Assembly (NCBI RefSeq): GCF_900156425.1
Contig: NZ_FTNO01000005.1
Location: 186,001 to 250,000, forward strand
DNA length: 64,000 nt
Reading direction: 5' to 3'
Source: Haladaptatus litoreus
GTDB lineage: Archaea; Halobacteriota; Halobacteria; Halobacteriales; Haladaptataceae
Numbering within the stretch: position 1 is the first letter of the stretch; every line of letters begins with the position of its first letter. Below, in pieces: positions 6,813-27,461 of this stretch. The notes under the pieces were generated by a model. The model worked only from the letters and a program-made list of their open reading frames with translations. It was not told the origin of the DNA and did not search any database. Made by a program: the position numbers and the translations under genes.

Positions 6813-7272
6813 GGGTAGAGATGAATACTGTTCGCACTACAATCTCGCCGAAGGATGCGTGCTGACCGAGCGCCTTCGGGAGAAAGAAAGGCCGAACCGA
6901 ACTGTCTAGACGTCTTTTCGACGTCGGTAAATAACTTTCGTTAAATCAGAGCCTCCATGTATTTTGACAACTCTGTAACCACTCTTCGGGAGATTCCACA
7001 GATGTCGCCGACCGACGCTTTCATCGACTCATCTAAAATCTAACTCGTCTGCTGACGGAGCTTGCGACGACATGTTCGTCCTGATCGTTAGCATACAGTA
7101 CCCCGCACGGCGTTTCCGAATCCTTTTTGGGATATTTCCGCAACTAGTGAAAGATGAATACGACCAGAACGCTCTCTCGGTTCTCCCTTGCTGTTCCCGT
7201 GACGCATTTCACAAAACTGACGACCTGCACGGATTCGGCGAGAGCGACGGTACGAATAGCCGACCAGAAGTC
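6813..7272. other. Intergenic region, divergent promoters
   Basis: About 460 bases without a convincing gene. It contains two GACGTC palindromes five bases apart near 6912-6930 and an AT-rich patch (around 6930-6965) that may hold TATA elements for the flanking divergent genes. The in-frame extension of the MFS gene from 7072 is polar and does not look coding. Confidence 0.4.
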
Positions 7273-8553: not shown

Positions 8554-8680
8554 ATCGTCATCCGCGGCGCTCACGCTCACTGCAATCGGCTGTCAGTAAC
8601 CTCTCCTCTCGGTGGTGTTGTACGGTCGGCATCAACGACTGCCAGAAACGGGTTAAGGCTATAGGGCGACTACCGTTGTC

Positions 8681-9754
8681 ATGCCAATCGAGGACATCGC
8701 GCAGTTCACAATCGAATCCGTACAGGTTCTCTCCGAAGAGGGAACCGTCGATGAAGATCTCGTCCCCTCATTGACCGACGACCAACTACTGGAGATGTAC
8801 GAACAGATGAAACGCTCGCGTCGCCTTGACGAGCGGGCTATCTCGCTACAGCGTCGCGGCGAATTGGGAACCTACGCCCCCGCTATCGGACAGGAGGCGG
8901 CACAGGTCGCCAGCGCGTTCGCCTTGGCGGACGAGGACTGGGTCGTTCCATCATTCCGTGAGCAAACCGCGCTCTTGGTTCGCGGTATTCCGCCGCATCA
9001 AATCCTCTGGTATGCACTGGGAATGGAAGAGGGGGCCGAAATTCCGGAGGGCGAACACGCATTTCCACCGGCCATTCCCGTCGGAACCCAACCACTCCAC
9101 GCCGTCGGGGTCGGCTGGGGGGAGGCATTACAGGGCCGGTCGAACGTCGCGATTACGTATTTTGGAGATGGCGCGACCAGCGAGGGAGACGTTTACGAGG
9201 CACTCAATTTCGCCGGGGTCTACGACGCTCAGACCGTTTTCGTCTGCCAAAACAACCGATACGCCATTTCGACGCGGCTCGCGAATCAAACCGCCGCGGA
9301 GACGCTCGCACAGAAGGCCGTCGCGGCGGGAATCGACGGTGTCCGCGTTGACGGCAACGACGTTCTGGCCGTCTATCGCGTCGCACAGGACGCCATCGAG
9401 AAGGCTCGAAACGGGGAACCGACGCTCATCGAGGCACTCACGTATCGCCGTTCGATGCACACGACGTCCGACGACCCGTCCGTCTACCGGGAGGCCCAAG
9501 AGGAAGAGGAGTGGGAGGCACGCGACCCAATCGTTCGTTTTCAAGTGTACCTGATGGACCAGGGGATTCTCGACGAGGAGACAAAATCCGAAATCGACGA
9601 GCGTATCGAAACCGAACTCGGCGACGCAATCGACCGGGCAAAGGCGGGACGCGAGGCAATCGACCCGGCGGACATGTTCCGGTTCGCATACGAGGAGATA
9701 CCAGCGGAAGTCGAACGGCAGTTCGAAGCGTTCGAGGGTGGTACGCATGGCTGA
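8681..9754 (+). CDS. 2-oxoacid (pyruvate/branched-chain) dehydrogenase E1 component, alpha subunit
   Basis: 357 residues of the thiamine-diphosphate E1 alpha family. The TPP-binding motif is present at about residues 163-192: GDGATSEGD, followed by the expected 20-odd residues and QNNRYAIS. A substrate-loop segment with YRRSMHTTSDDPSVYR matches the phosphorylation-loop region of E1 alpha. It decarboxylates a 2-oxoacid together with the beta subunit. The stop overlaps the beta gene start by eight bases, so the two are one operon. Whether the substrate is pyruvate or branched-chain 2-oxoacids cannot be decided here. Confidence 0.92.
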   Translation: MPIEDIAQFTIESVQVLSEEGTVDEDLVPSLTDDQLLEMYEQMKRSRRLDERAISLQRRGELGTYAPAIGQEAAQVASAFALADEDWVVPSFREQTALLVRGIPPHQILWYALGMEEGAEIPEGEHAFPPAIPVGTQPLHAVGVGWGEALQGRSNVAITYFGDGATSEGDVYEALNFAGVYDAQTVFVCQNNRYAISTRLANQTAAETLAQKAVAAGIDGVRVDGNDVLAVYRVAQDAIEKARNGEPTLIEALTYRRSMHTTSDDPSVYREAQEEEEWEARDPIVRFQVYLMDQGILDEETKSEIDERIETELGDAIDRAKAGREAIDPADMFRFAYEEIPAEVERQFEAFEGGTHG

Positions 9755-10715: not shown

Positions 10716-11230
10716 ATTCGGGATGCGGTGTCGGAAATGACCATCGTGGATTCGAACCTTCACTTTCTGTACTACGCTTTAGAACCCTCCGACCGAATTT
10801 GATATAGCGACATTTAATTTATAGTTTGAAAGACGGCTGTTTCAAGCCCTAAACCCCCTACTTTCGCGACTTCTATTGAATGGCCATCCACTTCCGCTTA
10901 GAACCGTAATGAGAAGTGAATTGCCCCCTGGTCGATGCTGTCGGCGAAGCACGAGACGTAATTCCAAAGAGAAGGATTCTACAGGTTACGGGATTTTCCG
11001 TGCACGATACGAGGAAGGCTCGTATCGTTTGGACATCGAATCAGATGCGAGAGGTGACCGAACCGGCGAGCGGTATTCTACGGTTGCAGAGCATTGTCGG
11101 CAAACGTAAGAACGGACCGTATTCACGGACATCTCTTCGAACGTAAGTATCGCTTCCCACCTCTCTCGGCACTTCGTATTTAGACAAAATTTGGCACAAA
11201 TCGTTTAGCTTGTCGAACAGTACTGTGGAC
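10716..11230. other. Intergenic region, 515 bases
   Basis: No convincing gene. An AT-rich patch at 10799-10830 could hold promoter elements. A perfect 10-bp inverted repeat lies at 11004-11028. A frame at 10876-11109 has a stretch vaguely like the start of HalOD1 proteins (Tyr-Arg-Leu-Asp-Ile-Glu), but the domain core is missing; if real it is a remnant. Confidence 0.4.
11004..11028. promoter_or_regulatory. Perfect 10-bp inverted repeat (hairpin or operator)
   Basis: Arms ACGATACGAG and CTCGTATCGT are exact reverse complements separated by GAAGG. It lies 203 bases before the formate/nitrite-channel fusion gene and 288 bases after the E1 beta stop, so it could be an operator or an RNA hairpin. 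There is no T-run after it, so a simple terminator is less likely. Confidence 0.5.
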
Positions 11231-13036
11231 ATGGTAGACTCGGAACAGGAGGACGAAGAGACAGTTCGAGACGCTGTCGAAAGCGCGCGAAGCGGTGCTC
11301 CTGCCGTCGGAGCAGTCGTGCGAGATCGGTTTTCGTCCGACGAAATCTTTCAGCGGATTATCGCCGCTGCCGACGAAGAAGTCACTTCGAGTTCCCGTGA
11401 ACTGTTTTTCAGCGCGCTCGCGGGTGGTTTTGCTATCACGATTACGTTCTTACTGTACTCCTCTATGTCGGCGACGATGGACGGCGACCCGCTTTTGAGC
11501 GTCCTCCTGTACCCTCTCGGATTTATCTATATCATCATCGGTGGCTACCAACTGTACACTGAAAACACGCTCCCGCCGGTTGCACTAACGTTAGAGCGAC
11601 TCGCCAGCATTCCAGAGTTGCTTCGCCACTGGCTCATCGTCCTCAGTGGTAACTTCGCGGGCGGTGCCATCGGTGCGGTCGCGCTCACGTGGGGGGATGT
11701 TTTCTCTCCTGAGGCGAAAAGGGCGGCCTTGAGCCACGCTGAACACGGTATCGAGACGCCAGTGGCATCACTGTTTGCGAAGGCGGTCTTTGCCGGACTC
11801 ATCGTCGCCGGTGTCGTTTGGGTGGTGTACGCCTCCCGTGATACGATTTCCCGGCTCGTGGTTATCTACCTGGCATTCCTTGCGATTCCACTCGGTGACC
11901 TCTTTCACGTCGTCGTCTCCTTCACGGAATTGGTGTACTTGGTTCTCGCAGGGGACGTTGGACTCTCCATCGGAATAACGCAGTTCGTCGGGCCGGTACT
12001 GCTCGGCAACACTGTTGGCGGCGTCGTACTAGTGACAGTCGTCAACTATTTCCAAACGAGCGAACGCCGACTCGAATCGGCGCGGTTCGAAGGGGTCGAC
12101 CGCCAACTGTCGATTCGAGAGTGGTTGTTCGGCACGCTCGTGGGTCGGTCGTACGTTTCGATGATAGACACCAGCGAGGCGGTTGTTGACGACGATACAT
12201 ATCGAATACTGGTTCCAATCGGCAATCCCCGCACCGAGTCAGAAATCGTAAATCTGGCGTGCATCCTCGCTAGCGAACGTCCGTCCGCGGTCATCCACGC
12301 GGTTCACATCGTGCAGACGCCACCTCGTGCGTCGATGAGCTACGACCACAATCAGCGAGAGCGAATCATTACGGAATCAAACGAACTCATGGAAAGCGTC
12401 CGTGAAATCGTGGATTCTTACGATGTGTCGTATGAGTCATCGACGGTCGTTTCCCATCGCTCGTTTCAAGAGGTGTTTACGACGACCGAACGCGAACGGG
12501 CCGACCTCGTCGTTATGGGATGGGGAACCGACCGGCCGTGGGGAGATGCTCGCGCAGAGCGGCCGATAGACGAGTTGACGAGTCGGCTTCCCTGTGATTT
12601 TCTCGTACTCAAAGACCGTGGATTCGACGCCTCGAAAATCCTGCTGCCGACCGCAGGAGGGCCAGATTCGGTGTTGGGTGCCGAGGTTGCACGAGCATGC
12701 AGATCTGTTCTCGGCTCGACAATTACCGTACTGCACGTCGTAGACAGTCCCAACGAGCACGAATCGGGTGAACAGTTTCTCGCCGAGTGGGCCGCAGATA
12801 ACGATTTAGGCGATGCCGAACTCGTAGTCGACGATTCGGGTGACGTTGGAGACGCAATCTGTCGTGAATCGAGAGAACACTCGTTGGTAATCGTCGGCGC
12901 AACCGAAAAAGGACTCCTCTCGCGACTCGTAACCGAGTCCCTCCATTTCGACGTTCTCAACGAGGTCGATTGTTCCGTGGTGCTCGCGGAGCGTCCCGAC
13001 AGTCGAACGATATTCGAACGGCTGTTCGGCGACTAA
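11231..13036 (+). CDS. Formate/nitrite-transporter-type channel fused to two universal stress domains
   Basis: 601 residues. Residues about 60-285 form an FNT (FocA/NirC-like) channel domain with six helices and the recognisable loops GNFAGGAIGAV and GNTVGGVVLV. After a linker come two UspA domains: about 325-460 (ends VVMGWGTDRPWG...) and about 470-600, the latter with an ATP-binding-like GATEKG loop. The channel probably passes small monovalent anions such as formate, nitrite or acetate; the Usp domains may sense nucleotide state and gate it. ATG 11231 is chosen over an upstream TTG. The gene appears monocistronic. Confidence 0.88.
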   Translation: MVDSEQEDEETVRDAVESARSGAPAVGAVVRDRFSSDEIFQRIIAAADEEVTSSSRELFFSALAGGFAITITFLLYSSMSATMDGDPLLSVLLYPLGFIYIIIGGYQLYTENTLPPVALTLERLASIPELLRHWLIVLSGNFAGGAIGAVALTWGDVFSPEAKRAALSHAEHGIETPVASLFAKAVFAGLIVAGVVWVVYASRDTISRLVVIYLAFLAIPLGDLFHVVVSFTELVYLVLAGDVGLSIGITQFVGPVLLGNTVGGVVLVTVVNYFQTSERRLESARFEGVDRQLSIREWLFGTLVGRSYVSMIDTSEAVVDDDTYRILVPIGNPRTESEIVNLACILASERPSAVIHAVHIVQTPPRASMSYDHNQRERIITESNELMESVREIVDSYDVSYESSTVVSHRSFQEVFTTTERERADLVVMGWGTDRPWGDARAERPIDELTSRLPCDFLVLKDRGFDASKILLPTAGGPDSVLGAEVARACRSVLGSTITVLHVVDSPNEHESGEQFLAEWAADNDLGDAELVVDDSGDVGDAICRESREHSLVIVGATEKGLLSRLVTESLHFDVLNEVDCSVVLAERPDSRTIFERLFGD

Positions 13037-14967: not shown

Positions 14968-16146
14968 ATGCCACAAGCCGTTTTCGACAAAAGCGAATAC
15001 GAACGGCGGATAGAGCGGACGAAAGAACGAATGCGCGAAGCGGAGTTGGACGCACTCGTCGTTTCCGACCCGGCGAACATGAACTACCTCGCGGGATACG
15101 ACGGCTGGTCGTTCTACGTCCATCAGGCCGTTATCGTCACTCACGACCGCGACGAACCAGTTTGGATTGGACGAGAGATGGACGCGAACGGCGCACGCGC
15201 AACGACGTGGCTTTCCGAGGAGAACATTCGCTCGTACAGCGACGACCACGTTCAGTCGCCGTACGACCTTCACCCAATGGACTTCTTCGCCGCGATATTG
15301 GAAGAACTCGACGCCGACGATGCTCGCATCGGCGTCGAGATGGACGCCTACTACTTCACCGCGAAATCCTACACTCGCCTCCAGAAGAACCTCCCCGACG
15401 CCGAGTTCGACGACGCCACACTTCTCGTCAACTGGGTTCGAATCATCAAATCCGAACCGGAGTTGGAGTTCATGCGACAGGCCGCCCGCATCTCCGAAAA
15501 CGCGATGCAGGCCGGACTCGATGCGGTCGGCGAAGGTGTCCCCGAATACGAAGTCGCGGCCGAAATCTACGACGGCCTCATCAGAGGAACGGACGAGTTC
15601 GGCGGCGACTACCCCTCTATCGTTCCCCTGATGCCGTCCGGCGACCACACCGGTACGCCACATCTCACGTGGACCGACCGCCCCTTCGAGCGCGGCGACC
15701 CCGTCATCATCGAACTCTCCGGTTGTCGAAATCGGTACCACTCCCCGTTGGCGCGAACGACCTTCGTCGGTGACCCACCCGAGGAGATGCAACGCAGGGC
15801 GGAAATCGTCGTCGAAGGACTCGAAGCGGCGCTCGACCACGTCGAACCCGGTGTCACCGCCGAATCCGTCGAGCGAGCGTGGCGCGACGTTATCGAGAAG
15901 TACGACATCGTGAAAGAGGACCGAATCGGCTACTCGATGGGACTCGGCTACCCGCCGGACTGGGGCGAACATACAGCCAGTCTCCGCCCCGGTGACGAAA
16001 CGGTGCTCGAAGAGAACATGACGTTCCACTCGATTCCCGGACTCTGGTTCGACGACTTCGGCGTCGAACTCAGCGAGACGTTCCGCGTCACCGCGAACGG
16101 TGTCGAAGTGCTGGCCGAGTTCCCACGGGAACTGTTCTCCACCTGA
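14968..16146 (+). CDS. doeA: Ectoine hydrolase (M24/creatinase fold)
   Basis: 392 residues, two domains: creatinase-type N-domain (1-155) and pita-bread M24 domain (about 160-390). It carries long blocks characteristic of DoeA/EutD rather than general Xaa-Pro peptidases: HPMDFFAAILEEL, GVEMDAYYFTA, LVNWVRIIKSEPELEFMRQA, GGDYPSIVPLMPSG followed by PHLTW, GYPPDWGEH-like Gly-Tyr-Pro-Pro-Asp-Trp-Gly-Glu and SLRPGDETVLE. The enzyme opens the ectoine ring to N-acetyl-2,4-diaminobutyrate. Length equals the bacterial enzyme (about 390-400). It heads the catabolic island and is preceded by an inverted repeat. Confidence 0.85.
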   Translation: MPQAVFDKSEYERRIERTKERMREAELDALVVSDPANMNYLAGYDGWSFYVHQAVIVTHDRDEPVWIGREMDANGARATTWLSEENIRSYSDDHVQSPYDLHPMDFFAAILEELDADDARIGVEMDAYYFTAKSYTRLQKNLPDAEFDDATLLVNWVRIIKSEPELEFMRQAARISENAMQAGLDAVGEGVPEYEVAAEIYDGLIRGTDEFGGDYPSIVPLMPSGDHTGTPHLTWTDRPFERGDPVIIELSGCRNRYHSPLARTTFVGDPPEEMQRRAEIVVEGLEAALDHVEPGVTAESVERAWRDVIEKYDIVKEDRIGYSMGLGYPPDWGEHTASLRPGDETVLEENMTFHSIPGLWFDDFGVELSETFRVTANGVEVLAEFPRELFST

Positions 16147-16194
16147 CGGCTCTTTTTCTCACTTTTCGCCTCAGCGCGACATCACCTCGTTTCG

Positions 16195-17166
16195 TCAGTC
16201 GGACTCCGGAGCGAGAACTTGGTTGTCCAGCGTCTCGCCGTCGGCGAGACGCTGGACGTTTTCGGCGACGATGTCAGCAAGACGCTCCCAGTGTCGCGGC
16301 GTGTGTCCGCCAGTGTGGGGCGTGACGAGACAGTTTTCGAGATTCCAGAGCGGATGGTCTTCCGGTAGTGGTTCGGGGTCGGTCACGTCGAGCGCCGCCC
16401 CGCGAATCGCGTTCGACCGAAGCGCGGAGACGAGCGCGTCAGTATCGACGATAGAGCCGCGTGCGGTGTTGACGAGGACGGCGTTCGTGGGGAGTGTTGC
16501 GAACTCCGATTCCCCGACGAGGCCGCGCGTCGTCTCGGTGAGCGGGCAGGCGATGACGACGTACTCGCTTCGGGAAAAAGCGTCGTGGATGGCGTCCTCC
16601 TCGAAGCCGACGACTTCGTCCGTCGGGCCGCCTTTCTCCGGCGAGTACCGGACACCGATAGTCTCCACGTCGAAGCCCTGTAGGCGTTGAACCACGGCCT
16701 TTCCGATAGAGCCTAGCCCGACGACCGTAACGGTGCTATCGGTGAGTTCACCGGATTGAAAATGCCGCCACTCGGCGCGTTGCTTGCGCCGCCAGCCTTC
16801 GTGGAGGCGGCGCGCGAAGACGAGCATATTGCCGATGGCTTGCTCGGCGATTCCGGGGGCGTGGATTCCGCCAGCGTTCGTTACGGCGATGCCGCGCTCT
16901 GCGAAGGCGTCCATCGGGACGTGGTCGGTTCCGGCGAAAGTGCACGCGAACAGTTCGAGTTGCTCGGCGCGCGCGAGGAGGTTTTCGTCAACCGTGATGC
17001 CCGTGACGACCCGCGCGTCGGTGACGAGTTCACGCTCCTGTTTTGGCGTCCGAGCGAGCGCGACCGTTCGGTCGGGAAGGCGTTCGCGCAACTCCTCGGC
17101 GTACGATTCCATCGAGAGTCCTTCGGTCCCCTCGCGGAGGACGACTACATCCGGATTTGTACTCAT
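16195..17166 (-). CDS. D-2-hydroxyacid dehydrogenase (NAD-dependent)
   Basis: 323 residues of the D-isomer 2-hydroxyacid dehydrogenase family. Visible: NAD-binding GLGSIGKAV (about 149-157), the catalytic Arg in NTARGSIVD, Glu in DVTDPEPLPEDHPLW and His in TPHTGGH. It reduces a 2-oxoacid to the D-2-hydroxyacid or the reverse. It lies between doeA (convergent) and the M20 gene (divergent). In this island it could act on a 2-oxoacid released by the PLP lyase or by transamination, but this is inference; haloarchaea carry many paralogues. Confidence 0.88.
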   Translation of the reverse strand: MSTNPDVVVLREGTEGLSMESYAEELRERLPDRTVALARTPKQERELVTDARVVTGITVDENLLARAEQLELFACTFAGTDHVPMDAFAERGIAVTNAGGIHAPGIAEQAIGNMLVFARRLHEGWRRKQRAEWRHFQSGELTDSTVTVVGLGSIGKAVVQRLQGFDVETIGVRYSPEKGGPTDEVVGFEEDAIHDAFSRSEYVVIACPLTETTRGLVGESEFATLPTNAVLVNTARGSIVDTDALVSALRSNAIRGAALDVTDPEPLPEDHPLWNLENCLVTPHTGGHTPRHWERLADIVAENVQRLADGETLDNQVLAPESD

Positions 17167-17297
17167 TCTTTCACCACCGCGTCAGCTGACGCGAATCGAT
17201 AATAGAATCATTGTCACTGTCCACCTTAGCCCTTTGTGTAGTCGATGTCCACGAAAAGCGTTTACAATTAAGTGTATTGAGGGTGTCACTGTCACAC

Positions 17298-18578
17298 ATG
17301 GCTGAATCGATACGAGAACGTCTCTCCGATGTTCGGCGCGAGTTCCACCGCTATCCGGAGCCCGCGTGGTGCGAGTTCCACACGACTCACCGACTCGTCG
17401 AAGAACTACGCGCAATCGGCGTCGACGAACTCGCCGTCGGAACCGAAGTGTACGATAGCGACGACCGGATGGCCGTTCCCGAAACGGACGAAATAGAACG
17501 CTGGTACGAAACGGCGCTCGAACGGGGTGCCGACTCCGGCCTCCTCGACGAAATGGCGGGCGGAAATACGGGCGTCGTCGCCGTCCTCGATAGGGGTTCC
17601 GGGCCGACGGTCGGACTCCGAGTGGACATCGACGCCCTGTTCATTGAGGAATCGACCGCGGACGACCACGCACCTGCGGCAGGAGGGTACCGGTCTGAAG
17701 GCGACGGAACCATGCACGCTTGCGGACACGACGCCCACATGACGTGGGGACTCGCCACCCTCGAAGCTATCAAGGAGAGCGACTTCGACGGGAAACTCGT
17801 CGTCTTCTTCCAACCCGCCGAGGAGGTGTCGGGCGGCGGCCACCCGATGGCTGAAAGCCGGTTCGCGGACGACCTCGACTACCTCTTCGCCGTTCACGTC
17901 GGTCTCGACCACCCAACCGGCGAAGTCGTCGCCGGTATCGAGCGACCGCTCGCCATGTGCCACCTCGACGTGACGTTCGAGGGAACGTCGGCGCACGCGG
18001 GGAAAGCGCCGGAGAAGGGGGACAACGCGATGCAGGCGCTCGGTACCGCAATTCAGAATGCCTACGCCATTCCCCGCCATTCGGAGGGGATGACCCGTGT
18101 AAACCTCGGAAAGGCAGAAGCGGGCACCGCGAGCAACATCATCGCCGAACGGGCGCACGTCGCGGCGGAGGCGCGCGGGGAAACGACCGAACTCAAAGAG
18201 TACATGAAATCCCGCCTGACGAGGACGCTCAAATCCGCCGCCGAGATGCATGGTTGCGACGCGGACATCGACGTGGTGAGCGAGTCCCCTCGTGCAGACA
18301 GTGACCCGGAACTCGTGGAGGTGGTGGCGGACGTAGCCCGCGGTGTCGAGGGCGTGGATTCGGTCGTCCCGACCGCGGATTTCGGTGCCAGCGAAGATGC
18401 GACGTTTCTGATGGAACGGGTACAGGAAGAAGGCGGTTTGGCGACGTATCTCATCGTCGGCACCGACCACCCGACGAGTCACCACACCCCGACGTTCGAC
18501 GTGGACGAGCGGAGTCTCAAAATCGGCGTCGAGGTGCTGACGAACTCGATACTCGCCGTCGCGCCGAACGAGCGATGA
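17298..18578 (+). CDS. M20-family amidohydrolase, candidate N-acetyl-diaminobutyrate deacetylase
   Basis: 426 residues of the M20 (AbgA/HipO-like) metal-dependent amidohydrolase family. N-terminus LSDVRREFHRYPEPAWCEF is typical; metal-site motifs include MHACGHDAHMTWG (about 139-151), PAEEVSGGGHP (173-183) and a C-terminal HPTSHHTPTFDVDE. The bacterial ectoine pathway uses an AstE-like DoeB for N-acetyl-diaminobutyrate; none is present here, so this enzyme is the natural substitute. The ATG at 17298 is chosen since the upstream frame is hydrophobic leader DNA. Its TGA overlaps the next ATG (ATGA). Confidence 0.82.
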   Translation: MAESIRERLSDVRREFHRYPEPAWCEFHTTHRLVEELRAIGVDELAVGTEVYDSDDRMAVPETDEIERWYETALERGADSGLLDEMAGGNTGVVAVLDRGSGPTVGLRVDIDALFIEESTADDHAPAAGGYRSEGDGTMHACGHDAHMTWGLATLEAIKESDFDGKLVVFFQPAEEVSGGGHPMAESRFADDLDYLFAVHVGLDHPTGEVVAGIERPLAMCHLDVTFEGTSAHAGKAPEKGDNAMQALGTAIQNAYAIPRHSEGMTRVNLGKAEAGTASNIIAERAHVAAEARGETTELKEYMKSRLTRTLKSAAEMHGCDADIDVVSESPRADSDPELVEVVADVARGVEGVDSVVPTADFGASEDATFLMERVQEEGGLATYLIVGTDHPTSHHTPTFDVDERSLKIGVEVLTNSILAVAPNER

Positions 18579-19858
18579 GTTCCGACGGGTCGAACGACGG
18601 CATTTCGGACGCCGACGAGATTCCGGCCGCGGAGGAGGTCGTCACGCTCGCCGACGTGGAAGCCGCTCGGAACCGCCTCGAAGACGTGGTTCACTGCACG
18701 CCCCTCGACCGTTCGACGACGTTCGCGGAGCGAAGCGGAGCGGCGTCGGTCGGACTCAAACTGGAGAACATGCAGCGAACCGGGTCGTTCAAAATCCGCG
18801 GCGCGTACAACGCGATGGCCCAACTTTCGCCTGCGGAGTGCGAGCGCGGCGTCGTCGCGTCGAGTGCAGGCAATCACGCCCAAGGAGTCGCCTTTGCGGG
18901 CCAACTGCTCGACATCGAGACGACCATCGTCGTCCCCGAGGTAACTCCATCCGCGAAGCGGGAGGCGACCCGCGGGTACGGCGCCGAGGTCGTCGTCTCC
19001 GGCGACATCTACGAACGCTCCTACGAGCACGCCCTCGACCTCGCCGACGAGGACGAACTGACGTTCGTCCATCCGTTCAACGACGAGAGGATAATCGCCG
19101 GACAGGGAACGGTCGGCCTCGAACTGCTCGAACAGTTTCCCGAACTGGACACCGTCCTCGTCTCCATCGGTGGCGGTGGTCTGATTTCCGGCATCGCGAC
19201 CGTACTCAAGGCCCACGACCCGGATTTCCGGGTCGTGGGCGTCCAGCCAGAGGGGGCGTTCCACGCCAAACCGTCGCTCGAACGCGGCGAAATCCACGAA
19301 CTGTCGGACGTGAACACCGTCGCGGAGGGAATCGCCGACGCGCGCTTGTTGGAGAAAAGCTTCGCCGTCGTCCGCGAGCGCGTGGACGACGTGGTCAGCG
19401 TCAGCGACCGGGAGATGAGCGTCGCCGTGACGCTCCTCGCCGAGCGCGCAAAAACCGTCGCCGAGACTGCTGGCGCAGCGCCGCTCGCGGCGCTACTCTC
19501 CGGCGCGGTGGACGTGGAGGGTGAGAACGTCGCCGTCGTCGTCTCCGGCGGAAACGTGAACCTCGCGGAGCACGCCGAACTGACGCGCACAGGACGGATG
19601 GAACTCGGGCGATACGCCGAGGCACGCCTCGGCGTTGACGACTGGCCGACGGTTCTCGACATCCTCGCGGCGACGGTCGAACGTCACGGCGCAGAACTCG
19701 ACGTGCTGGAGCGCGCTCGCCGCACCGCCGCAGACGACCCGAATCGAACGCCCGTGATTGTCGGTGTGGAGGGAAGCGGGCCAGACCATCTTTCGGACGT
19801 ACTGAATGCGTTGGACGAACGGGACGAAATTTCGGTCGGGAACAGTACGATGGACTGA
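18575..19858 (+). CDS. Threonine ammonia-lyase-like PLP enzyme (EutB/IlvA type)
   Basis: 427 residues, fold-type II PLP enzyme. The PLP lysine is Lys73 in GSFKIRGAYNA; SSAGNHAQGVA and the glycine-rich phosphate loop (SIGGGGLISG) follow. A short C-terminal ACT-like region (about 335-427) is present, as in catabolic/biosynthetic threonine dehydratases. It is translationally coupled to the M20 amidohydrolase. In bacterial hydroxyectoine catabolism EutB belongs to this family, so a role on a hydroxylated diaminobutyrate is plausible; plain threonine/serine deamination is the alternative. A RidA gene in the same island supports enamine chemistry. Confidence 0.85.
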   Translation: MSSDGSNDGISDADEIPAAEEVVTLADVEAARNRLEDVVHCTPLDRSTTFAERSGAASVGLKLENMQRTGSFKIRGAYNAMAQLSPAECERGVVASSAGNHAQGVAFAGQLLDIETTIVVPEVTPSAKREATRGYGAEVVVSGDIYERSYEHALDLADEDELTFVHPFNDERIIAGQGTVGLELLEQFPELDTVLVSIGGGGLISGIATVLKAHDPDFRVVGVQPEGAFHAKPSLERGEIHELSDVNTVAEGIADARLLEKSFAVVRERVDDVVSVSDREMSVAVTLLAERAKTVAETAGAAPLAALLSGAVDVEGENVAVVVSGGNVNLAEHAELTRTGRMELGRYAEARLGVDDWPTVLDILAATVERHGAELDVLERARRTAADDPNRTPVIVGVEGSGPDHLSDVLNALDERDEISVGNSTMD

Positions 19859-19875
19859 CGAGGTTTTTCAGGTGC

Positions 19876-21216
19876 TCAGGCCGCCTCGATGGCGTCGTTC
19901 AGAATGCTGATGCCGAGTTCGATTTCGCGCTCGGTCGAATCCAGCGGCGGGAGCAGGCGGATGGTTTTCTCGCCGCATCCGAGGGTGAGCATTCCCCGTT
20001 TTACTGCCTCTCTGACGACCGAATCGCGTCGCTCCGCCGTGTCGAATTCCACGGCGAGCATCAGCCCTTTTCCGCGCACGTCGTCGACTTTCGGGGAGTC
20101 GCCGTCACGAAGTAGCTCTTTGGCCTGCCGACCGCGTTCGGTCGCGTTTTCGAGCAGGTCGTACTCTTCGATAGCCTCCAGCGTGAGCGCACCCTGCATC
20201 GACGACAGGAGGTCGCCGCCGCCGAACGTCGAACCTAACCGATTCTTCTCCGAGGGAAAGACGTCCGAGCGCGAAATGGTCGCACCGACGCGGAGGGCTT
20301 TCGCGCTAGCGATAACGTCGGGTTCGATTGGGTAGTGGTCGGATGCCCACATTTTTCCGGTTCGACCGACGCCGGACTGGATTTCGTCCACGACGAGGGG
20401 AATGTCATACGTCTCACAGACATCGTCCACTTCGGCCATGAATTCGGTGCTCGGGAACCGATAGCCGCCGACGCCTTGTATCGGTTCGACGGCGAGGAAC
20501 GCCACCTCGTCGGGGTTGACGTGGCCACCCTCGGGTTGAAGCGCGTTCCGAAACTGTGAGCCGTCTCCCGCGAAGAACCCGCAGTCGCAGGTTTCGGCGG
20601 TGCAGTCGCGGTCGTCGCAGAACGGTATCGTGCGAACTCCGGCGATTTCGGGGTAGTGGCGCGTGTAGACTTCGTTCGAGCGGGTGATAGAGAGGGTGCC
20701 CAGCGTCCGGCCGTGAAAGCTCCCGTCGAACGCGAAGGCGTATTTGGCAGGGGGATTCCGGTCGTGGGTTATCTTCATCGCGTTTTCCATCGCCTCTGCG
20801 CCGGAGTTCGAGAGAAAGACGGTGTCCATCCCGTACTGACTGGAGACGGAAACGAGCGTTTCGACGAGGTGGCTAGACGCCGGGAAATCGGCGGTTTCCG
20901 GACTCTCTCCGGCACCAAAATACATATCCTGTCCGGCGATTTTCATCGGTTCGACCAACGAAAACTCGCGGAGTTTTTCGAGAATTTTCTCGTTGTTGTA
21001 TCCGAGCGGTGCGGCACCGATGTGACAGGTAAAATCGAGGAGGACGTTGCCGTCCACGTCGGAGACGAACGGCCCGTCCGCCTCGCCCGTCACGTCCCAG
21101 ACGAACTCGTGTGAGAACTCGCTCGGTGCCGCGTGCATATGGTGGAACTCGATCCACTGCCGCGCGTTCTTCCCCGGAAACACGCCAACGTCGGGAAGTG
21201 CAGTGTCCCTATCCAT
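19876..21216 (-). CDS. Class III aminotransferase (candidate diaminobutyrate aminotransferase, DoeD-like)
   Basis: 446 residues, PLP aspartate-aminotransferase-superfamily class III. SNSGAEAMENAMK (136-148), FHGRTLGTLSITRS (168-180), the Asp in VVDEIQSGVGRTG (276-287) and Schiff-base Lys306 in ASAKALRVG are present. A Cys-rich insertion (Cys200, 205, 210, 212) resembles that of archaeal broad-range omega-aminotransferases and may hold a metal. Start ATG 21216 has a TATA (TTTTAT) 27 bases upstream, so the mRNA is leaderless. Convergent with the PLP-lyase gene. It could convert 2,4-diaminobutyrate to aspartate semialdehyde; GABA, ornithine or lysine are alternatives. Confidence 0.8.
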   Translation of the reverse strand: MDRDTALPDVGVFPGKNARQWIEFHHMHAAPSEFSHEFVWDVTGEADGPFVSDVDGNVLLDFTCHIGAAPLGYNNEKILEKLREFSLVEPMKIAGQDMYFGAGESPETADFPASSHLVETLVSVSSQYGMDTVFLSNSGAEAMENAMKITHDRNPPAKYAFAFDGSFHGRTLGTLSITRSNEVYTRHYPEIAGVRTIPFCDDRDCTAETCDCGFFAGDGSQFRNALQPEGGHVNPDEVAFLAVEPIQGVGGYRFPSTEFMAEVDDVCETYDIPLVVDEIQSGVGRTGKMWASDHYPIEPDVIASAKALRVGATISRSDVFPSEKNRLGSTFGGGDLLSSMQGALTLEAIEEYDLLENATERGRQAKELLRDGDSPKVDDVRGKGLMLAVEFDTAERRDSVVREAVKRGMLTLGCGEKTIRLLPPLDSTEREIELGISILNDAIEAA

Positions 21217-21233
21217 ATACAGCAATCGTTGAT
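21217..21233. promoter_or_regulatory. Half-conserved 17-bp element between TATA and start codon
   Basis: ATACA, seven bases, then TTGAT; the first arm equals the ATACA-N7-TGTAT element at 23631 and 26170, the second matches three of five bases. It abuts the start codon of the minus-strand aminotransferase and lies downstream of its TATA, the same geometry as at 23631, which would suit a repressor. Confidence 0.35.
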
Positions 21234-21474
21234 GCAGTACATAAAAACTTGGTAAAAGAGAAATCAAACGAGGTGGTCGCATCGCTGTTTGAGCACTCTT
21301 CGATAGTGAGTACGCCTTGTCGAAATTTCGAAAGAAGAGAGCTACAGTCAGGCGGAGAAACCGGGCGTAGATACCATCTACCGAGCCCAGAACCCGTCGA
21401 TTCGTCTCGAATAGTCCCGAATAGTTCGGTCGTGAGGGAGCAGTAATTTTCCCTTCGACGAAAAATGTACTATT

Positions 21475-23106
21475 TTAGTCGTCGTCCTGCCCGACTACCG
21501 GATGACCTGTCGGTTCGTCATCCTTCGTGGGCGAACCGAACAGTTGCGTTTCCTCCTGTAAGAGCACGCTTCCGTATTCGTCTTGGAACGTTCTGATGAG
21601 GCCGAGAACGGTCACCGTACAAACGACGAGGAACGGGCCGCCGGTCGTAATCGCGGCGGCCTGAAGTGCGTCGGCACCGCCGATAACCATCAGGATGGAC
21701 GCGACTGCACCCTGCAGAAGCGCCCAAAAGATGCGGTTGACGGACGACGGGTGTTCTTTTCCGCCGGTCGTCATCATCGAAACCGCGAGCGTCGAGGAGT
21801 CCGCCGACGTGACGAAGAACGTCGTCACGAGGATGAGGAATCCCAAGAGGAGAAGTTGGCCGAGTGGAAGCGCACCGTACAGGATGTACCCGGAGACGGC
21901 GGAACCGAGGTCGGGATTACTAATCGGGCCGAGGGCGTTTACGGCACCAGTGTGCTGTAGCCAGACGCCGGTTCCGCCGAGAATCACGAACCACGGGATA
22001 GTCGCCAGCGCGGTCGCGCCGATGCCGGTGAATGCGACTTCTCGAACCGAGCGACCGCGCGAGATTCGCGCAATAAACAGTCCCGCGAACGGTGACCACG
22101 CAAGTGGCCATGCCCAATAAAACACCGTCCAAGAGTTCGTCCACTTATCGGCACTCCGTTGGGTCACTTCGGTGAACAGGCTCATCTGGAAGAAATCACC
22201 GATGAAACCGCCGATGGCCTGTGTTCCGATTTCGAGGATGAAGAAGGTCGGGCCGACGATGAGCGTACCGATCATCAACACGAAAAAGAGCACCATGTTG
22301 AAGTTCGACAGCCGACGGATACCACGGTCAACACCGAACAGGAGTGACGTGGTGAAGATGACGGTCATTCCCGTGATGATAGCGATGGTTCCGGCGTCGC
22401 CCAGTTCGATACCCCATTGATACTGCAATCCGGTGAGGAACTGACTTCCAATGAATCCCAGCGAGGTTGCGACACCGCCGAGCGTGGCGAACACCGCGAG
22501 AATGTCGATGAGCGTTCCCCAGAAGCCATCGACGTTGTCGGCTCCGAGGAAGGGCGTCAGCATGGCGGAAACGCGGAGCGGCGCGCCGTAGTTGTAGACG
22601 AAGTAGCCGATACCGAGACCCATCACGGTGAAACACGACCACTGAGTGAGACTCCAGTGAAACAGCGAATACTGTACCGCGATAGGCATCGCCGCTGCGG
22701 ACTGGTCTGCTGCGTTGTACAGTGGTGGAACGCTCCCGTAGTGTGTGAGTGCCTCGGCAGGTCCCCAGAAGACGATACCCGCCGCGAGTCCGGCGGAGTA
22801 CATCATCGAAAAGTAGGCGAAATAGCTGTATTCGGGCGGTTCATCGCCCAATTTGAGCTTTCCCCACGGCCCGAGGATGAGGTACCCAAGGAAGAGGACG
22901 AATCCGAGCATGCCGACGAGGAACGCCCAACTGAAGTGAGCGAGCATGAAGTCCTGAATCGCATAGACGATTTCTGCCGCCGTGTTAGGGTCGTATGCGA
23001 AAATCGCCACGAATAGGAGCGTGATTCCCGCGCCGAACGCGAAGATGGTCGGTTCGATTTCCTCGAAGAACTCGGAGAACGCATCCGATTTGTCGGCGTT
23101 GCTCAC
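21475..23106 (-). CDS. BCCT-family compatible-solute transporter
   Basis: 543 residues, 12 membrane helices, betaine/carnitine/choline transporter family. The hallmark segment WTVFYWAWPLAWSPFAGLFIARISRG (near residues 340-365) is intact, and the helix-4-type Trp/Gly motif (GIVFWGPAEAL) occurs near residue 112. Members import glycine betaine, ectoine or related solutes with Na+ or H+. Start is the GTG at 23106, supported by a strong Shine-Dalgarno. Position inside the ectoine-degradation island makes ectoine/hydroxyectoine a reasonable substrate, betaine the main alternative. The acidic C-terminal tail may sense osmotic state. Confidence 0.9.
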   Translation of the reverse strand: MSNADKSDAFSEFFEEIEPTIFAFGAGITLLFVAIFAYDPNTAAEIVYAIQDFMLAHFSWAFLVGMLGFVLFLGYLILGPWGKLKLGDEPPEYSYFAYFSMMYSAGLAAGIVFWGPAEALTHYGSVPPLYNAADQSAAAMPIAVQYSLFHWSLTQWSCFTVMGLGIGYFVYNYGAPLRVSAMLTPFLGADNVDGFWGTLIDILAVFATLGGVATSLGFIGSQFLTGLQYQWGIELGDAGTIAIITGMTVIFTTSLLFGVDRGIRRLSNFNMVLFFVLMIGTLIVGPTFFILEIGTQAIGGFIGDFFQMSLFTEVTQRSADKWTNSWTVFYWAWPLAWSPFAGLFIARISRGRSVREVAFTGIGATALATIPWFVILGGTGVWLQHTGAVNALGPISNPDLGSAVSGYILYGALPLGQLLLLGFLILVTTFFVTSADSSTLAVSMMTTGGKEHPSSVNRIFWALLQGAVASILMVIGGADALQAAAITTGGPFLVVCTVTVLGLIRTFQDEYGSVLLQEETQLFGSPTKDDEPTGHPVVGQDDD

Positions 23107-23110
23107 GCGA

Positions 23111-23120
23111 AATCACCTCC
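23111..23120 (-). promoter_or_regulatory. Strong Shine-Dalgarno of the BCCT gene
   Basis: On the minus strand GGAGGTGATT stands about five bases before the GTG start, nearly perfectly complementary to the archaeal 16S 3' end. Most genes in this window are leaderless or have weak sites, so the BCCT message must have a real 5' leader, and the site fixes the non-ATG start. Confidence 0.75.
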
Positions 23121-23630
23121 GTCGAACCCGTGACTTCGCACAGCGTCGTCCATCGCCGAATACGTCGCGGCGGCAGAGTGGCATTTAAGCCGAACTCTGA
23201 GGTGTTCCTCCGGCGGTACCCCGCTCCGTCCGAACCGTTCGCATCTGTGTATGCTATCGTTCATGGATTACCCCCATTCGCCATGCTGTATGATGACGTT
23301 CCTCATGATAGTCGTGAAATATCGTGATAAAAGTTACGCTTATTGAATCCTATGAATACAGAATACGTTTACAAAATCAGGTTCGGAACGCTATCTGTAT
23401 ATATCTATAACAGTATACCTGTTTGTCACTTGTTGTCTGCGAGAACACGCTGACGAAAGCCATTAGACCATGAACTTTTGATATGATATAGTGGATTTAA
23501 AATTGACCGCAAACGGTCGCCGAGCCCAATTCACATCACTTCGTCGTCGGTACGAAGGGGTAACAGAACCCGAGTAACTGTTCGACCGACAAAAGCCGAA
23601 TTGGGGACTTCGCAACCCTTAATCAGAGCC
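23121..23630. other. AT-rich intergenic region between BCCT and the 217-aa gene
   Basis: No gene seen. The stretch 23320-23510 is strongly AT-rich, with several TATA-like motifs and imperfect palindromes (for example around 23395-23420, with CTGT and ACAG arms). It must hold the divergent promoters for the BCCT transporter and the unknown 217-aa protein, and could host regulator sites. Confidence 0.5.
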
Positions 23631-23647
23631 ATACACAAAATCTGTAT
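23631..23647. promoter_or_regulatory. Candidate operator ATACA-N7-TGTAT at the 217-aa gene start
   Basis: Perfect five-base arms with a seven-base spacer, ending directly against the ATG at 23648. A TATA-like CTTAAT lies about 27 bases before the ATG, so the element covers the transcription start of a leaderless mRNA, a position suited to repression. The same arms and spacing recur at 26170-26186. Confidence 0.5.
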
Positions 23648-24301
23648 ATGAGTAACCATTCCGATGCTACCGAGTTCCCGAACGAACTCGCCTATTCCGC
23701 CGACAGGGACAGAGGCATTCTCACGCCGAGCGATAGGGAGTTCCTCATCGGACGAAAATCGGATTACACCGAACACTCGAAAAAGCAGAAACGAAACCGA
23801 ATCCGCCGCCGCCTCCGCAACGCCATTCTCGACTGTACGATTCTGTTCGAACACCTTGAACACCGCGACCGAGAAACCGTCTTCAATCCCGACGACGACG
23901 CCAGAGACGCTTACACGCGGGGAATCACCGATATGCTCGCGTTCCTCCATCTCGGGACGATGGGCTACTACACGCCGTTCAAGGACATGCTCGGGCAGGG
24001 TGTCAACAAAGCAGAACAGGAGTTGGCAGGGTCGGACTACCGGATGGTGAACGTGGAGTTCAACGTCGACCCGGTCGGACAAATCGACGTAGACGAAGTC
24101 ATCGACAAACTCGAATTTGGCGACTTCGAAGATATAACCGACGAAGAACTCCGCGTATTCGTTCGCCTACTCGCCGAGTCGGAGGATTTCTCGGCAACGT
24201 CCATGCGCTCGGATATGAAAGAACAGATGAGCGAGTTCATCGAGAAAATCAACGCCGCGGCAGCACAACGCGACCAGCGCGTCGAAGAGCTGAACGACTG
24301 A
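23648..24301 (+). CDS. Conserved haloarchaeal protein of unknown function (217 aa)
   Basis: 217 residues, soluble, highly charged. The N-terminal third has the pattern RGILTPSDREFLIGRKSDYT followed by a basic helix (KKQKRNRIRRRLRNAILD), which I have seen in uncharacterised haloarchaeal proteins; the basic helix could contact DNA or membrane. The middle is hydrophobic (DMLAFLHLGTMGYY) and the C-terminus is a predicted helix ending in EFIEKINAAAAQRDQRVEEL. A leaderless start with an inverted repeat over it suggests specific control. Location between BCCT and RidA/aminotransferase suggests a role in the island, possibly a regulator, but this is speculation. Confidence 0.75.
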   Translation: MSNHSDATEFPNELAYSADRDRGILTPSDREFLIGRKSDYTEHSKKQKRNRIRRRLRNAILDCTILFEHLEHRDRETVFNPDDDARDAYTRGITDMLAFLHLGTMGYYTPFKDMLGQGVNKAEQELAGSDYRMVNVEFNVDPVGQIDVDEVIDKLEFGDFEDITDEELRVFVRLLAESEDFSATSMRSDMKEQMSEFIEKINAAAAQRDQRVEELND

Positions 24302-24310
24302 TTTTCGCCC

Positions 24311-24700
24311 TCAGCCGAGAGACGCTATCGCGTCCATCTCGATACGAACGTCTCCCGGCAGGCGAGCGACTTCGACGCAGACCCTCGCAGGTTGGTTCTC
24401 CGAGAATCGTGCGCCGTAGGCCTCGTTGACTTCGTCGTAGTCGTCTAAATCGGTCAGATAAACGGTTACTTTGACCACGTCGGCGAGTCCGTCGCCGCCC
24501 GCCTCGTTGACGACGGCGGCGACGTTGTCTAGCACTTGATTGGTCTGGGTTCGGATGTCGCCCGCAACATCGTCGCCGGTTTCGGGGTCAACCGGGCCGT
24601 ATCCGGACACGTACACCGTCTCGCCAGCGCGGACACCTTGTGAGTACGGATTGTCGTTACGCGGTGCGTCGTCCGTTACGATTGGGTCGGTGTCGCTCAT
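24311..24700 (-). CDS. RidA/YjgF-family imine/enamine deaminase
   Basis: 129 residues, trimeric Rid-family fold. The signature NQPARVCVEVARLPGDVRIEMDAIA near the C-terminus contains the conserved active-site Arg (in ARVCVEVA), and NPYSQGVRAGETVYVSG is the usual N-terminal block. RidA hydrolyses 2-aminoacrylate and 2-iminobutanoate made by PLP dehydratases. It lies 33 bases downstream of the second aminotransferase on the same strand, so the two are probably cotranscribed, and it complements the PLP lyase of this island. Confidence 0.9.
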   Translation of the reverse strand: MSDTDPIVTDDAPRNDNPYSQGVRAGETVYVSGYGPVDPETGDDVAGDIRTQTNQVLDNVAAVVNEAGGDGLADVVKVTVYLTDLDDYDEVNEAYGARFSENQPARVCVEVARLPGDVRIEMDAIASLG

Positions 24701-24733
24701 GGTCGCTGTTCTATATGATGGTGGAAATCCGGT

Positions 24734-26113
24734 TCACGCGGTCTGCTGTTCGGTGGTCGTCTGCCGAATGCCCTCGACGATGATGTCCATCGCCGTCTCG
24801 GCCAATTCTTCGGTGATAACCAACGGCGGGAGGAGGCGGAGAACGTTCCCGTGTCGTCCGGCTTTCCAGACGAGGACGCCGTGTTCGTAGCAGTACTGCT
24901 GGACGGCTTTGACGGTCGCTTTGTCCGGATTTCCGTTCGCATCCACGAACTCGGCGCCGACGAACAGTCCCTTCCCTCGAACCTCGCCGATACTATCCGT
25001 TTCCGCTGCAACATCGCGCAGGCGGTCGCGGATGGTCGTTCCGAGTTCTCGCCCGTGAGCGAGCAGGTCGTGGTCTTGAATGTACTCTATCGCTCGCGTT
25101 CCGGCGCGCATCGCCACGACGTGGCCGCGGTAGGTTCCCGCGTGGTCGCCCGACCCCCACGTGTCGAAGTCCTCGTGATACATCGTCGCGGAGAGCGGGA
25201 ACCCGATACCACCGAGCGCTTTGGCCGTCGTCATCGCGTCCGGGGTGACGTCGTACCACTCGCTCGCCCACCACTGCCCGGAGCGACCGAGGCCGCTCTG
25301 AATCTCGTCGAAGACGAGCAGCACGTCGTTGTCGTCGGCGATTTCTCGCAATCCTGTGAGAAATCCCTCGGGCGGTGCGATGACGCCGCCTTCGCCTTGA
25401 ATCGGTTCGACGAAGATGCCCGCCGGATTCGCCAACCCGCCGTATGGGTCTTCGAGAATCGCCCGCACCTCTTCGAGCGCGTGGTCAACCGCTTCTTCCG
25501 GCGTTTTGTCCTGGCCGAACGGGTGCGGATACGGAGCGTGGACAACGTCCGAGAGAAGCGGCGTGTAATGTCCTTTGAAACTCTTGTTTCCGGTGAGACT
25601 CATCGCGCCGCTGGTCGCACCATGATACGCGCCGCGGAAGGCGATAAGACCGTCTCCGCCCGTGTTGTACTTGGCGAGTTTTATCGCGGCCTCGACGGCG
25701 TCGCTCCCAGTCGGGCCGCCGAAGACGACTCGATTGTTCCCTTGCAGTTCGCCGGGAGCAATCTCGTCGAGTTTTTCGATGAGTTCGAGACGCACCTCGG
25801 TCGGAAAGTCAACGGTGTGAACGAACTTATCGGTCTGTTCGTGTACCGCATCGAGAACGTAGGGATTCGAGTGCCCCACGTTCAACACGCCGATGCCGGC
25901 GAACATGTCGATGTACGTATTTCCGTCGGCGTCCCGAACCGTCGCACCTTTGCCCGATTCGAACGCGACTGGGATGTCTTCGGGATAGGCAACTGCGCTG
26001 CTATCTATCTCTCGTTGCTTTTCCAGCAATGCCCGCGTGTTCGGTCCGGGAACGGTATCGACGTTCGGCGCATCCTCGTAGTGTAGTTGGTCGATTGGTG
26101 GACCGGCCGTCAT
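24734..26113 (-). CDS. Class III aminotransferase (GABA/diaminobutyrate type)
   Basis: 459 residues, class III PLP aminotransferase. Landmarks: [21 protein letters not shown] (substrate/PLP loop), [17 protein letters not shown], the PLP Asp in [17 protein letters not shown] and the Schiff-base Lys in [15 protein letters not shown]. It resembles archaeal 4-aminobutyrate or L-2,4-diaminobutyrate:2-oxoglutarate aminotransferases. ATG 26113 (MTAGPP) is preferred over one 12 bases upstream: an AT-rich TATATATA element at 26135-26143 lies about 26 bases before it, giving a leaderless mRNA. It is followed by RidA. It is the second DoeD candidate; which one acts on diaminobutyrate is not decidable. 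Confidence 0.82.
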
Positions 26114-26143: not shown

Positions 26144-26169
26144 GGTTGTCCACGGATTTTATGGAAAAT

Positions 26170-26186
26170 ATACACAGATTTTGTAT
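26170..26186. promoter_or_regulatory. Candidate operator ATACA-N7-TGTAT upstream of the aminotransferase
   Basis: Perfect copy of the arms and spacing seen at 23631-23647 (ATACA and TGTAT, seven bases between). Here it stands upstream of the TATA, 57-73 bases before the start codon, where an activator or distal repressor site would be expected. Confidence 0.5.
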
Positions 26187-26261: not shown

Positions 26262-27290
26262 CTAACGAGGCGTGAGTCCGACGCCGTCGGCCAGCAGTTC
26301 GTGAGACTGAACTCCGTCGTCGTGGTCGGCGACGACGTGTTGAATCATCACCTCGTCAACCCCGACGCGGTCGGAAAGTTGCTCCAACAGACCGGCGAGC
26401 GTCTCCGGACTTCCGGAAATCGCCCGCGGCCATTCGTCGGAATCGAGCGTCGCGGGGGTTTGCTCGGGGACGCCGCCGAGTTCGTCGATAGACTCTTCGA
26501 TTGACGGCGTGGTTCCGACGACGCCACGTCGCATCCGTTTGTACGACGCTTCGGCCACCGCTCGAAGCCGCGCCGCTTTTCCGTCGGTTTCGGCACAAAT
26601 CGCGTTCACCGCAATCATCCCGTTCGGGTTCTCGGTGCTTCCGGCCAGCCGCGACGGTCGGAACTGTTCCCGGTACACTTCGAATGCGCGGGTGGCGAAC
26701 TGCGGTCGAATGAACGCCGCAAAACAGTACCGCAGGCCGAGTTTGCCTGCGAGCGCCGCGCTCGACGGACTCGACCCGAGAACCCACGGAACTGGTGCAT
26801 CTTCGCCCGAGCGTGGAATTTCCAAGTCGCTGTAGTCGTGCCCGTCGGGGTAGTCGTCGTAGAGGTGATTGACGACGGCCTCGATTTTCTCGGCGTGGTC
26901 TTCGTCCGGATTCTGCACGTGGCGCTCGGTTCCGAGGGCGCGGTCGGCGGCCGGAGAACCGTTCGCCCGGCCGAGGCCCGCGTCGATACGCCCGGGTGCG
27001 AGCGAATCCAGCGCGCCGAACGATTCCGCGACCTTGAACGGGCTATAATGGTTGAGCAACACCGCACCCGACCCGAGTCGAATGGAATCGGTTTCGGCGG
27101 CGAGATGGCCGAGCAGCACCTCGGGCGTCGTCCCCGCGAGGGTGCCTGCCATCCCGTGGTGTTCGGCGACCCAGAATCGGGAGTAGCCGAGCCGTTCCGC
27201 CTGTTGGGCGGCCGCAACCGTGTTCGCGTAGGCGTCGGTCGCAGTGCCATCGTCGGGAACTGGCGAGAGGTCAACGACAGAGAGATTCAC
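26262..27290 (-). CDS. LLM-class flavin-dependent oxidoreductase (luciferase-like)
   Basis: About 342 residues, bacterial-luciferase-like TIM barrel. Typical blocks: VNLSVVDLSPVP at the N-terminus, RFWVAEHHGM, RLGSGAVLLNHYSP, VAESFGALDSLAPGRIDAGLGR and VLGSSPSSAALAGKLGL. These enzymes use reduced FMN or F420; haloarchaea make F420, so either is possible. I prefer the GTG at 27290 since family members begin right there; a TTG at 27311 would add seven residues. The gene is alone on its strand between the ectoine island and a small unknown gene. Confidence 0.85.
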   Translation of the reverse strand: MNLSVVDLSPVPDDGTATDAYANTVAAAQQAERLGYSRFWVAEHHGMAGTLAGTTPEVLLGHLAAETDSIRLGSGAVLLNHYSPFKVAESFGALDSLAPGRIDAGLGRANGSPAADRALGTERHVQNPDEDHAEKIEAVVNHLYDDYPDGHDYSDLEIPRSGEDAPVPWVLGSSPSSAALAGKLGLRYCFAAFIRPQFATRAFEVYREQFRPSRLAGSTENPNGMIAVNAICAETDGKAARLRAVAEASYKRMRRGVVGTTPSIEESIDELGGVPEQTPATLDSDEWPRAISGSPETLAGLLEQLSDRVGVDEVMIQHVVADHDDGVQSHELLADGVGLTPR

Positions 27291-27461
27291 ATCCGGTTTC
27301 GGAGATTGCAAAGGATAACGGTTTGGCTAGCAGCAGTTTCTCGCTGCAAATTCCTGTCCGAAGCCTCGGTCTGTGACATGGCGTTACTGGAGTCTAATAA
27401 ACTATATCGGGCGCAGTAACCGTGCCAAATTCTTTTGTCAGTAGCTGGCATACCTGTGACG

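Follow-up and report, generated by a model that had tools for sequence, protein, structure and literature searches.

A gene cluster of the haloarchaeon Haladaptatus litoreus is likely to be a catabolic regulon for ectoine, and probably also for 5-hydroxyectoine, scavenged from bacteria. The cluster lies within a stretch of 64,000 nucleotides (the window), bases 186001-250000 of a 394-kb contig (NZ_FTNO01000005.1) of this 4.67-Mb haloarchaeal genome. Ectoine is a salt-protection compound made by bacteria and, in saline habitats, one of the major solutes rich in nitrogen. An initial annotation of the window had listed a DoeA-type ectoine hydrolase, an M20 deacetylase, two class-III aminotransferases (AT1 and AT2 below), a EutB-like lyase, RidA and a BCCT transporter within 11 kb. 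All of these genes were found, as placed, at positions 14968-26113, and two more that had been overlooked belong to the same span, one for a D-2-hydroxyacid dehydrogenase (HADH) and one for a conserved protein of 217 amino acids (Table 1). Ectoine catabolism is still the best reading of the cluster, but the assignment of two partners, to EutB and to a DoeB-type deacetylase, had to be given up.

The protein at the centre of this reading has Creatinase_N and Peptidase_M24 domains (Pfam) and is about 45% identical to the crystallised DoeA of Halomonas elongata, which was also its best match in the PDB (6twk, E=1.4e-115; best prolidase E=5.8e-33, creatinase E=5.1e-25). Compared with the prolidase of Pyrococcus furiosus, the metal positions of the M24 fold are replaced (IDLGA by IELSG, SDITRT by SPLART, TIEPG by HSIPG and RIEDT by ELSET), and the H. 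elongata DoeA has the same pattern of replaced metal ligands. Catalytic residues were assessed by conservation. The window protein shares 146 of the 214 columns that are invariant among four canonical DoeAs, against 59 and 61 for two M24 peptidases that this genome also encodes. Each of 44 DoeA-specific columns is conserved in 90% or more of the haloarchaeal and bacterial rows and missing from the M24 paralogues. In a maximum-likelihood tree, the haloarchaeal, Bacillota, Thermodesulfobacteriota and proteobacterial DoeAs came out together, opposite the M24 peptidases of the window's own genome, and the branch that separates the DoeA family from these peptidases measures 2.07 changes per site (support 100/99). 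The DoeA type given in the initial annotation is borne out by this grouping. Judged by its sequence, the window protein is a DoeA-type M24 enzyme devoid of the metal site and a member of the broader DoeA family; three named Haladaptatus species have DoeAs with 92-94% identity to it. That it might be an ordinary M24 peptidase surrounded by unrelated neighbours is what its Peptidase_M24 match and the public records, which label the haloarchaeal copies 'M24 family metallopeptidase', would lead one to think. We rejected this on the tree, the column conservation and the metal ligands; the all-or-none co-occurrence of the partners and their common operator-like site, described below, also speak against it and leave it scarcely credible.

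In a sample of 294 genomes of the class Halobacteria, DoeA (called at E<=1e-60) was found in 103. Cluster-type AT1 and M20 genes were present in 95 and 98 genomes, respectively, all of which carry doeA; neither was found in the 186 genomes without it (the thresholds were placed at a gap in the scores, which is narrow for M20). Since the sampled genomes are related, p values for co-occurrence are indicative only. Taking one locus per genome, orthologues of M20 and HADH lie within about 10 kb of doeA in 44 of 48 loci, a clustering of the three genes that goes far beyond chance. Two genomes (G017 and G061) have doeA apart and the HADH, M20, lyase, AT1, BCCT and 217-aa genes as a block elsewhere in the genome. 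Among 48 loci, GdhB is found directly behind doeA in 14, and a D-2-hydroxyglutarate-dehydrogenase-like FAD/FeS protein adjoins HADH in 18. The haloarchaeal copies are located on chromosomes and often also on megaplasmids; in Natrialba magadii ATCC 43099 the cluster is carried by pNMAG01. In Haladaptatus pallidirubidus the chromosome has the cluster twice, in near-identical form, and a plasmid has a third doeA.

The genes of the cluster are also connected by an operator-like inverted repeat with the consensus WTCYGT-N11-ACR(G/A)AW. The repeat stands before doeA in 40 of the 49 haloarchaeal genomes examined (the aligned element ATCYGT-N11-ACRAAA is found upstream of doeA in 36 of 48 loci, just 5' of a TATA-like stretch) and recurs 5' of HADH/M20, BCCT, AT2, RidA and an aldehyde dehydrogenase (ALDH) gene. 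A weight matrix trained on the doeA upstream regions alone, each locus being left out in turn, placed 24 sites in the upstream regions of the other cluster genes (2.7% of the sequence) and 9 elsewhere (p=8e-31); the comparison with other non-coding DNA, a count made with the full matrix, gave p=1e-13. Most of the sites counted as elsewhere precede BCCT, RidA, AT1, the 217-aa gene or an ALDH, barely beyond the counted distance. With the arms 11 bp apart there were 42 sites upstream of cluster genes (most of them the doeA sites that defined the motif) versus 2 in other non-coding DNA, while spacings of 9, 10, 12 and 13 bp gave 6 versus 5, 1 versus 1, 4 versus 3 and 7 versus 4. In 35 held-out loci outside the training set, a few of which adjoin or overlap earlier loci, 12 matrix matches (one of them a further doeA site) lie before cluster genes, against 5 in other places (p=3e-12, with an upstream share of 5.4% of the sequence); the plain arm pattern was weaker there, with 11 matches on either side. 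Scored in the window alone the operator was not significant (13 matches versus 8.3 expected), so its weight rests on the cross-genome and held-out tests. A sigma-70 scan upstream of doeA gave no match, the sigma-70 model not being meaningful for an archaeon. As the repeat is common to the transporter and the enzyme genes, BCCT and the enzymes look like one regulon, the transcription of which is probably coordinated through these sites.

The usual regulators had been described as missing, which is true of DoeX/AsnC and EnuR (no match in the 48 haloarchaeal loci), but the cluster genes do share the operator-like repeat, and the best candidate regulator is the 217-aa protein. It is encoded by a single-copy gene that diverges from BCCT in the window, one copy of the repeat lying between the two, and is 53-89% identical within the aligned set. 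The doeA site is present in 37 of the 40 genomes with this protein versus 3 of the 9 without it (p=4e-4, kinship not corrected). Its AlphaFold model (mean pLDDT 50) is not interpretable. Some of the loci devoid of the doeA site have an IclR gene nearby.

Regarding the partner enzymes, the genome has no DoeB of the AstE/AspA type, its best match to TIGR02994 scoring 102 bits (cut-off 402.7). The deacetylase of the initial annotation is indeed an M20 amidohydrolase, with both metal-site motifs (HACGHD and PAEE) and a score above the cut-off of TIGR01891 (263 versus 154 bits), and on this basis the candidate deacetylase of the cluster is M20-type, not DoeB. A second M20 hydrolase (60-64% identity) is located near BCCT/RidA in several haloarchaeal clusters (six loci). 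AT2 and AT1 are 27% and 26% identical to the Atf of Leisingera, AT2 is 35% identical to the aminotransferase of a Lentibacillus cluster, and neither reached the cut-off of an equivalog model. The absence of DoeC noted in the initial annotation is true locally, no DoeC or SSADH-like ALDH being found in the window cluster, but the genome has an off-cluster ALDH that could replace it, 60-63% identical to the ALDHs that adjoin AT2/RidA in two other haloarchaeal loci. In relatives, an aldehyde:ferredoxin oxidoreductase or an ALDH adjoins AT2; the oxidoreductase gene, a possible alternative to DoeC, is divergent from AT2 in several haloarchaea (five loci).

The lyase passes the cut-off of TIGR01127 (IlvA with ACT; 387 versus 378.75 bits) and misses those of the EutB models NF005680 and TIGR02991 (267 and 243.5 bits, cut-offs about 413). 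It is 45.6% identical to the best IlvA of the genome, versus 34-40% to EutBs, and the genome has another IlvA with a higher score (568.7 bits). Family scores and pairwise identity thus rule out a EutB and indicate that the lyase is a second IlvA-type paralogue. Its orthologues were found in 40 of 51 doeA genomes (11 lack them) and in none of 95 genomes without doeA; it is tightly tied to doeA yet dispensable, as would be expected of a side branch for hydroxyectoine. HADH is present in 50 of the 51 doeA genomes and accompanies the cluster in 48 of the 49 genomes examined. A hydroxyectoine branch in which HADH would act directly after the lyase and RidA is weakened by this distribution, since HADH is retained in 10 doeA genomes that lack the lyase and is found in 8 of the 95 genomes without doeA.

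The proposed pathway would begin with the import of ectoine by BCCT. DoeA would open the ring to yield N-alpha-acetyl-2,4-diaminobutyrate, as its homology and the shared active-site replacement suggest. The M20 hydrolase, in the place of DoeB, would then release acetate and 2,4-diaminobutyrate (DABA), which AT2, or AT1, would transaminate to aspartate semialdehyde with formation of glutamate. The semialdehyde may be converted to aspartate by the off-cluster ALDH (in relatives, by the linked ALDH or aldehyde:ferredoxin oxidoreductase), and the glutamate may be recycled by the GdhB linked to doeA in relatives. More speculatively, the IlvA-type lyase and RidA might dehydrate the 3-hydroxy-DABA derived from hydroxyectoine, replacing EutB, and the whole cluster is perhaps regulated by the 217-aa protein at the repeats. 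A bolder proposal, which we put forward only tentatively and hold to be less probable than not, is that the haloarchaea have an ectoine regulon of their own, in which non-orthologous components have gathered around an ancient DoeA, the 217-aa protein represents a regulator family not yet described and binds WTCYGT-N11-ACR(G/A)AW, and an IlvA-type dehydratase with RidA replaces EutABC for hydroxyectoine after ring opening.

Halophilic archaea rely mostly on KCl for their salt balance, and the linkage of GdhB and the D-2-hydroxyglutarate-dehydrogenase-like enzyme in many relatives suits the use of ectoine as a carbon and nitrogen source. Both facts make it improbable that the system serves the turnover of ectoine imported as an osmoprotectant and not its use as a nutrient. 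Such a role would agree with the frequent import of osmoprotectants by BCCT carriers and with Methylomicrobium alcaliphilum, in which degradation tunes the internal ectoine pool (PMC7192451).

We consider ectoine the likely substrate of the cluster, and several observations have to be set against this. The DoeA profile search was divided: in spite of the match to 6twk, the score on the NCBIfam equivalog TIGR02993 (490.4 bits) is below the curated cut-off of 613, so that we claim membership of the broader DoeA family only and not of the curated equivalog. In the tree, the haloarchaeal DoeAs fall outside a subclade made up of the proteobacterial enzymes, the verified ones included, and the same superfamily includes diverged rhizobial enzymes from operons unlike those for ectoine. 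The M20 hydrolase scores 109 bits on the DoeB2 model NF038260 (cut-off 550), and its identity with the M20s encoded in bacterial DoeA clusters is only 26-28%. No operator-like site lies upstream of the off-cluster ALDH or of the genome's D-2-hydroxyglutarate-dehydrogenase-like gene, and the link of these two to the pathway therefore rests solely on synteny in relatives. Finally, to judge from the study that reported archaeal clusters of this kind (Boas Lichty et al., AEM, April 2026; PMC13188858), no growth or enzyme data exist for any archaeon.

Some of these features would suit the degradation of a related compound (another cyclic amidine or an N-acyl diamino acid) by a DoeA of changed specificity, with divergent partners fitting that other substrate. 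Besides the missed TIGR02993 cut-off, there are consistent residue changes between canonical and haloarchaeal/Bacillota DoeAs (e.g., W42 to Y in H. elongata numbering), the M20 and AT enzymes do not seem to be orthologous to DoeB and DoeD, and several bacterial clusters have two DoeA paralogues, which suggests more than one substrate. Conversely, the 44 DoeA-specific columns are conserved, the linked BCCT is an importer of the compatible-solute type and has the same operator, and the bacterial relatives are accompanied by EhuABCD ectoine importers or by EutB. A substrate other than ectoine is, to our mind, rather unlikely. A verified precedent at an equal distance is known in M. alcaliphilum, where a DoeA 42% identical to that of H. 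elongata degrades ectoine in vivo and a DoeB with only 22% identity is functional in vivo (PMC7192451).

In comparison with the known bacterial systems, the doeABXCD cluster of H. elongata and the eut clusters of Ruegeria pomeroyi and Sinorhizobium meliloti likewise group DoeA, a deacetylase, an aminotransferase and an importer. The haloarchaea differ from them in having M20 in place of AstE-type DoeB and the IlvA-type lyase in place of EutB, and the window has no local DoeC. DoeB, EutC, EhuB and the TRAP permease had no match in the 48 haloarchaeal loci. The doeBDAC cluster of M. alcaliphilum resembles them in its divergent DoeA and in having neither EnuR nor AsnC, but belongs to an ectoine producer with a local DoeC (PMC7192451), and the haloarchaeal M20 falls below the NCBIfam DoeB2 model. 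The nearest DoeA relatives outside the haloarchaea (mostly 55-62%) are those of Bacillota clusters, which have an M20 of the same broad family and, in some cases, a BCCT. They are of the type PucR-EutB-EutD-EutC-CGS-M20-Hom-ALDH, e.g., on a plasmid of Priestia megaterium, and what sets them apart is a true EutB and EutC, a homoserine dehydrogenase, an ALDH and PucR as the regulator. No close relative of AT1 was found in them. In combining DoeA-like, M20, ALDH and true EutB genes they represent a bridging case. Another is the S. meliloti plasmid accessoryA (positions 7001-9414 of locus L169), in which an EhuBACD ectoine importer is followed by a DoeA-like M24 and an M20. This last cluster is a second type of rhizobial ectoine cluster, with an M24 not annotated as DoeA, an Asp/Glu racemase and no DoeB. 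Clusters of Moorella and desulfobacteria (L140, L153, L154 and others) contain TRAP transporter, DoeA-like and M20 genes; L140 and L153 each have two DoeA paralogues, and a PanB-like gene is present in L140 and L154. An ectoine hydrolase annotated as DoeA also appears on plasmids of Klebsiella pneumoniae, Klebsiella accounting for 28 of the matching plasmid records.

Boas Lichty et al. report more than 100 archaeal matches to EutD and clusters, conserved across genera of Halobacteria, in which the EutD/DoeA homologue is accompanied by aminopeptidase-like, aminotransferase and BCCT genes (PMC13188858). As these clusters were first reported there, under the name of provisional, their existence is not new. 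The main text of that paper does not mention the IlvA-type lyase, RidA, HADH, GdhB or the 217-aa protein, nor co-occurrence statistics or an archaeal operator or regulator. The present analysis adds the co-occurrence tests, the control site common to the cluster genes, the complete set of genes and a corrected reading of the lyase and the deacetylase.

Table 1. Genes and operator-like repeats of the proposed ectoine cluster (positions in the window; ORF, open reading frame)
Feature	Position	Strand	Remarks
Operator-like inverted repeat, ATCCGT-N11-ACAAAA	14904..14926	+	17-bp palindrome TTTGTGTCGTACACAAA inside; 42 bp 5' of doeA ATG
DoeA-type ectoine hydrolase (predicted activity)	14968..16146	+	M24/creatinase fold, metal ligands replaced
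D-2-hydroxyacid dehydrogenase (HADH)	16195..17166	-	
Weaker operator-like repeat	17234..17256	+	Divergent HADH/M20 intergenic region
M20 amidohydrolase, proposed N-alpha-acetyl-DABA deacetylase	17298..18578	+	ORF open from 17211; motifs HACGHD, PAEE
PALP lyase, IlvA-type (threonine ammonia-lyase-like, ACT domain)	18575..19858	+	4-base overlap with M20
Class-III aminotransferase AT1	19876..21216	-	ORF open to 21282
BCCT transporter, proposed ectoine importer	21475..23106	-	Sole BCCT of the genome
Operator-like repeat, ATCTGT-N11-ACAGTA	23393..23415	not assigned	Between BCCT and 217-aa gene
Conserved 217-aa protein, candidate regulator	23648..24301	+	No Pfam match; single copy
RidA (Rid family imine deaminase)	24311..24700	-	TIGR00004 138.5 bits, cut-off 106
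Class-III aminotransferase AT2, proposed DABA aminotransferase (DoeD role)	24734..26113	-	ORF open to 26125
Weaker operator-like repeat	26157..26179	-	Upstream of AT2

Next to AT2 in the window is a gene for an MsnO8-family LLM oxidoreductase (26262-27311), which adjoins doeA in Haloferax (loci L092-L098). To the left of the cluster (11210-13036), a formate/nitrite transporter is fused to universal stress protein domains.

To our knowledge, the known consumers of ectoine are bacteria, and the experiments come from a few Proteobacteria only. If the catabolic role holds for about one third of the haloarchaeal species, archaea would be drawing carbon and nitrogen from the bacteria of brines by an overlooked route, and the gene behind it is concealed in the databases under 'M24 family metallopeptidase'. 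The common control site would mark the transporter and the enzymes still without an assigned role as one regulon, and offers a direct and cheap test of the pathway.

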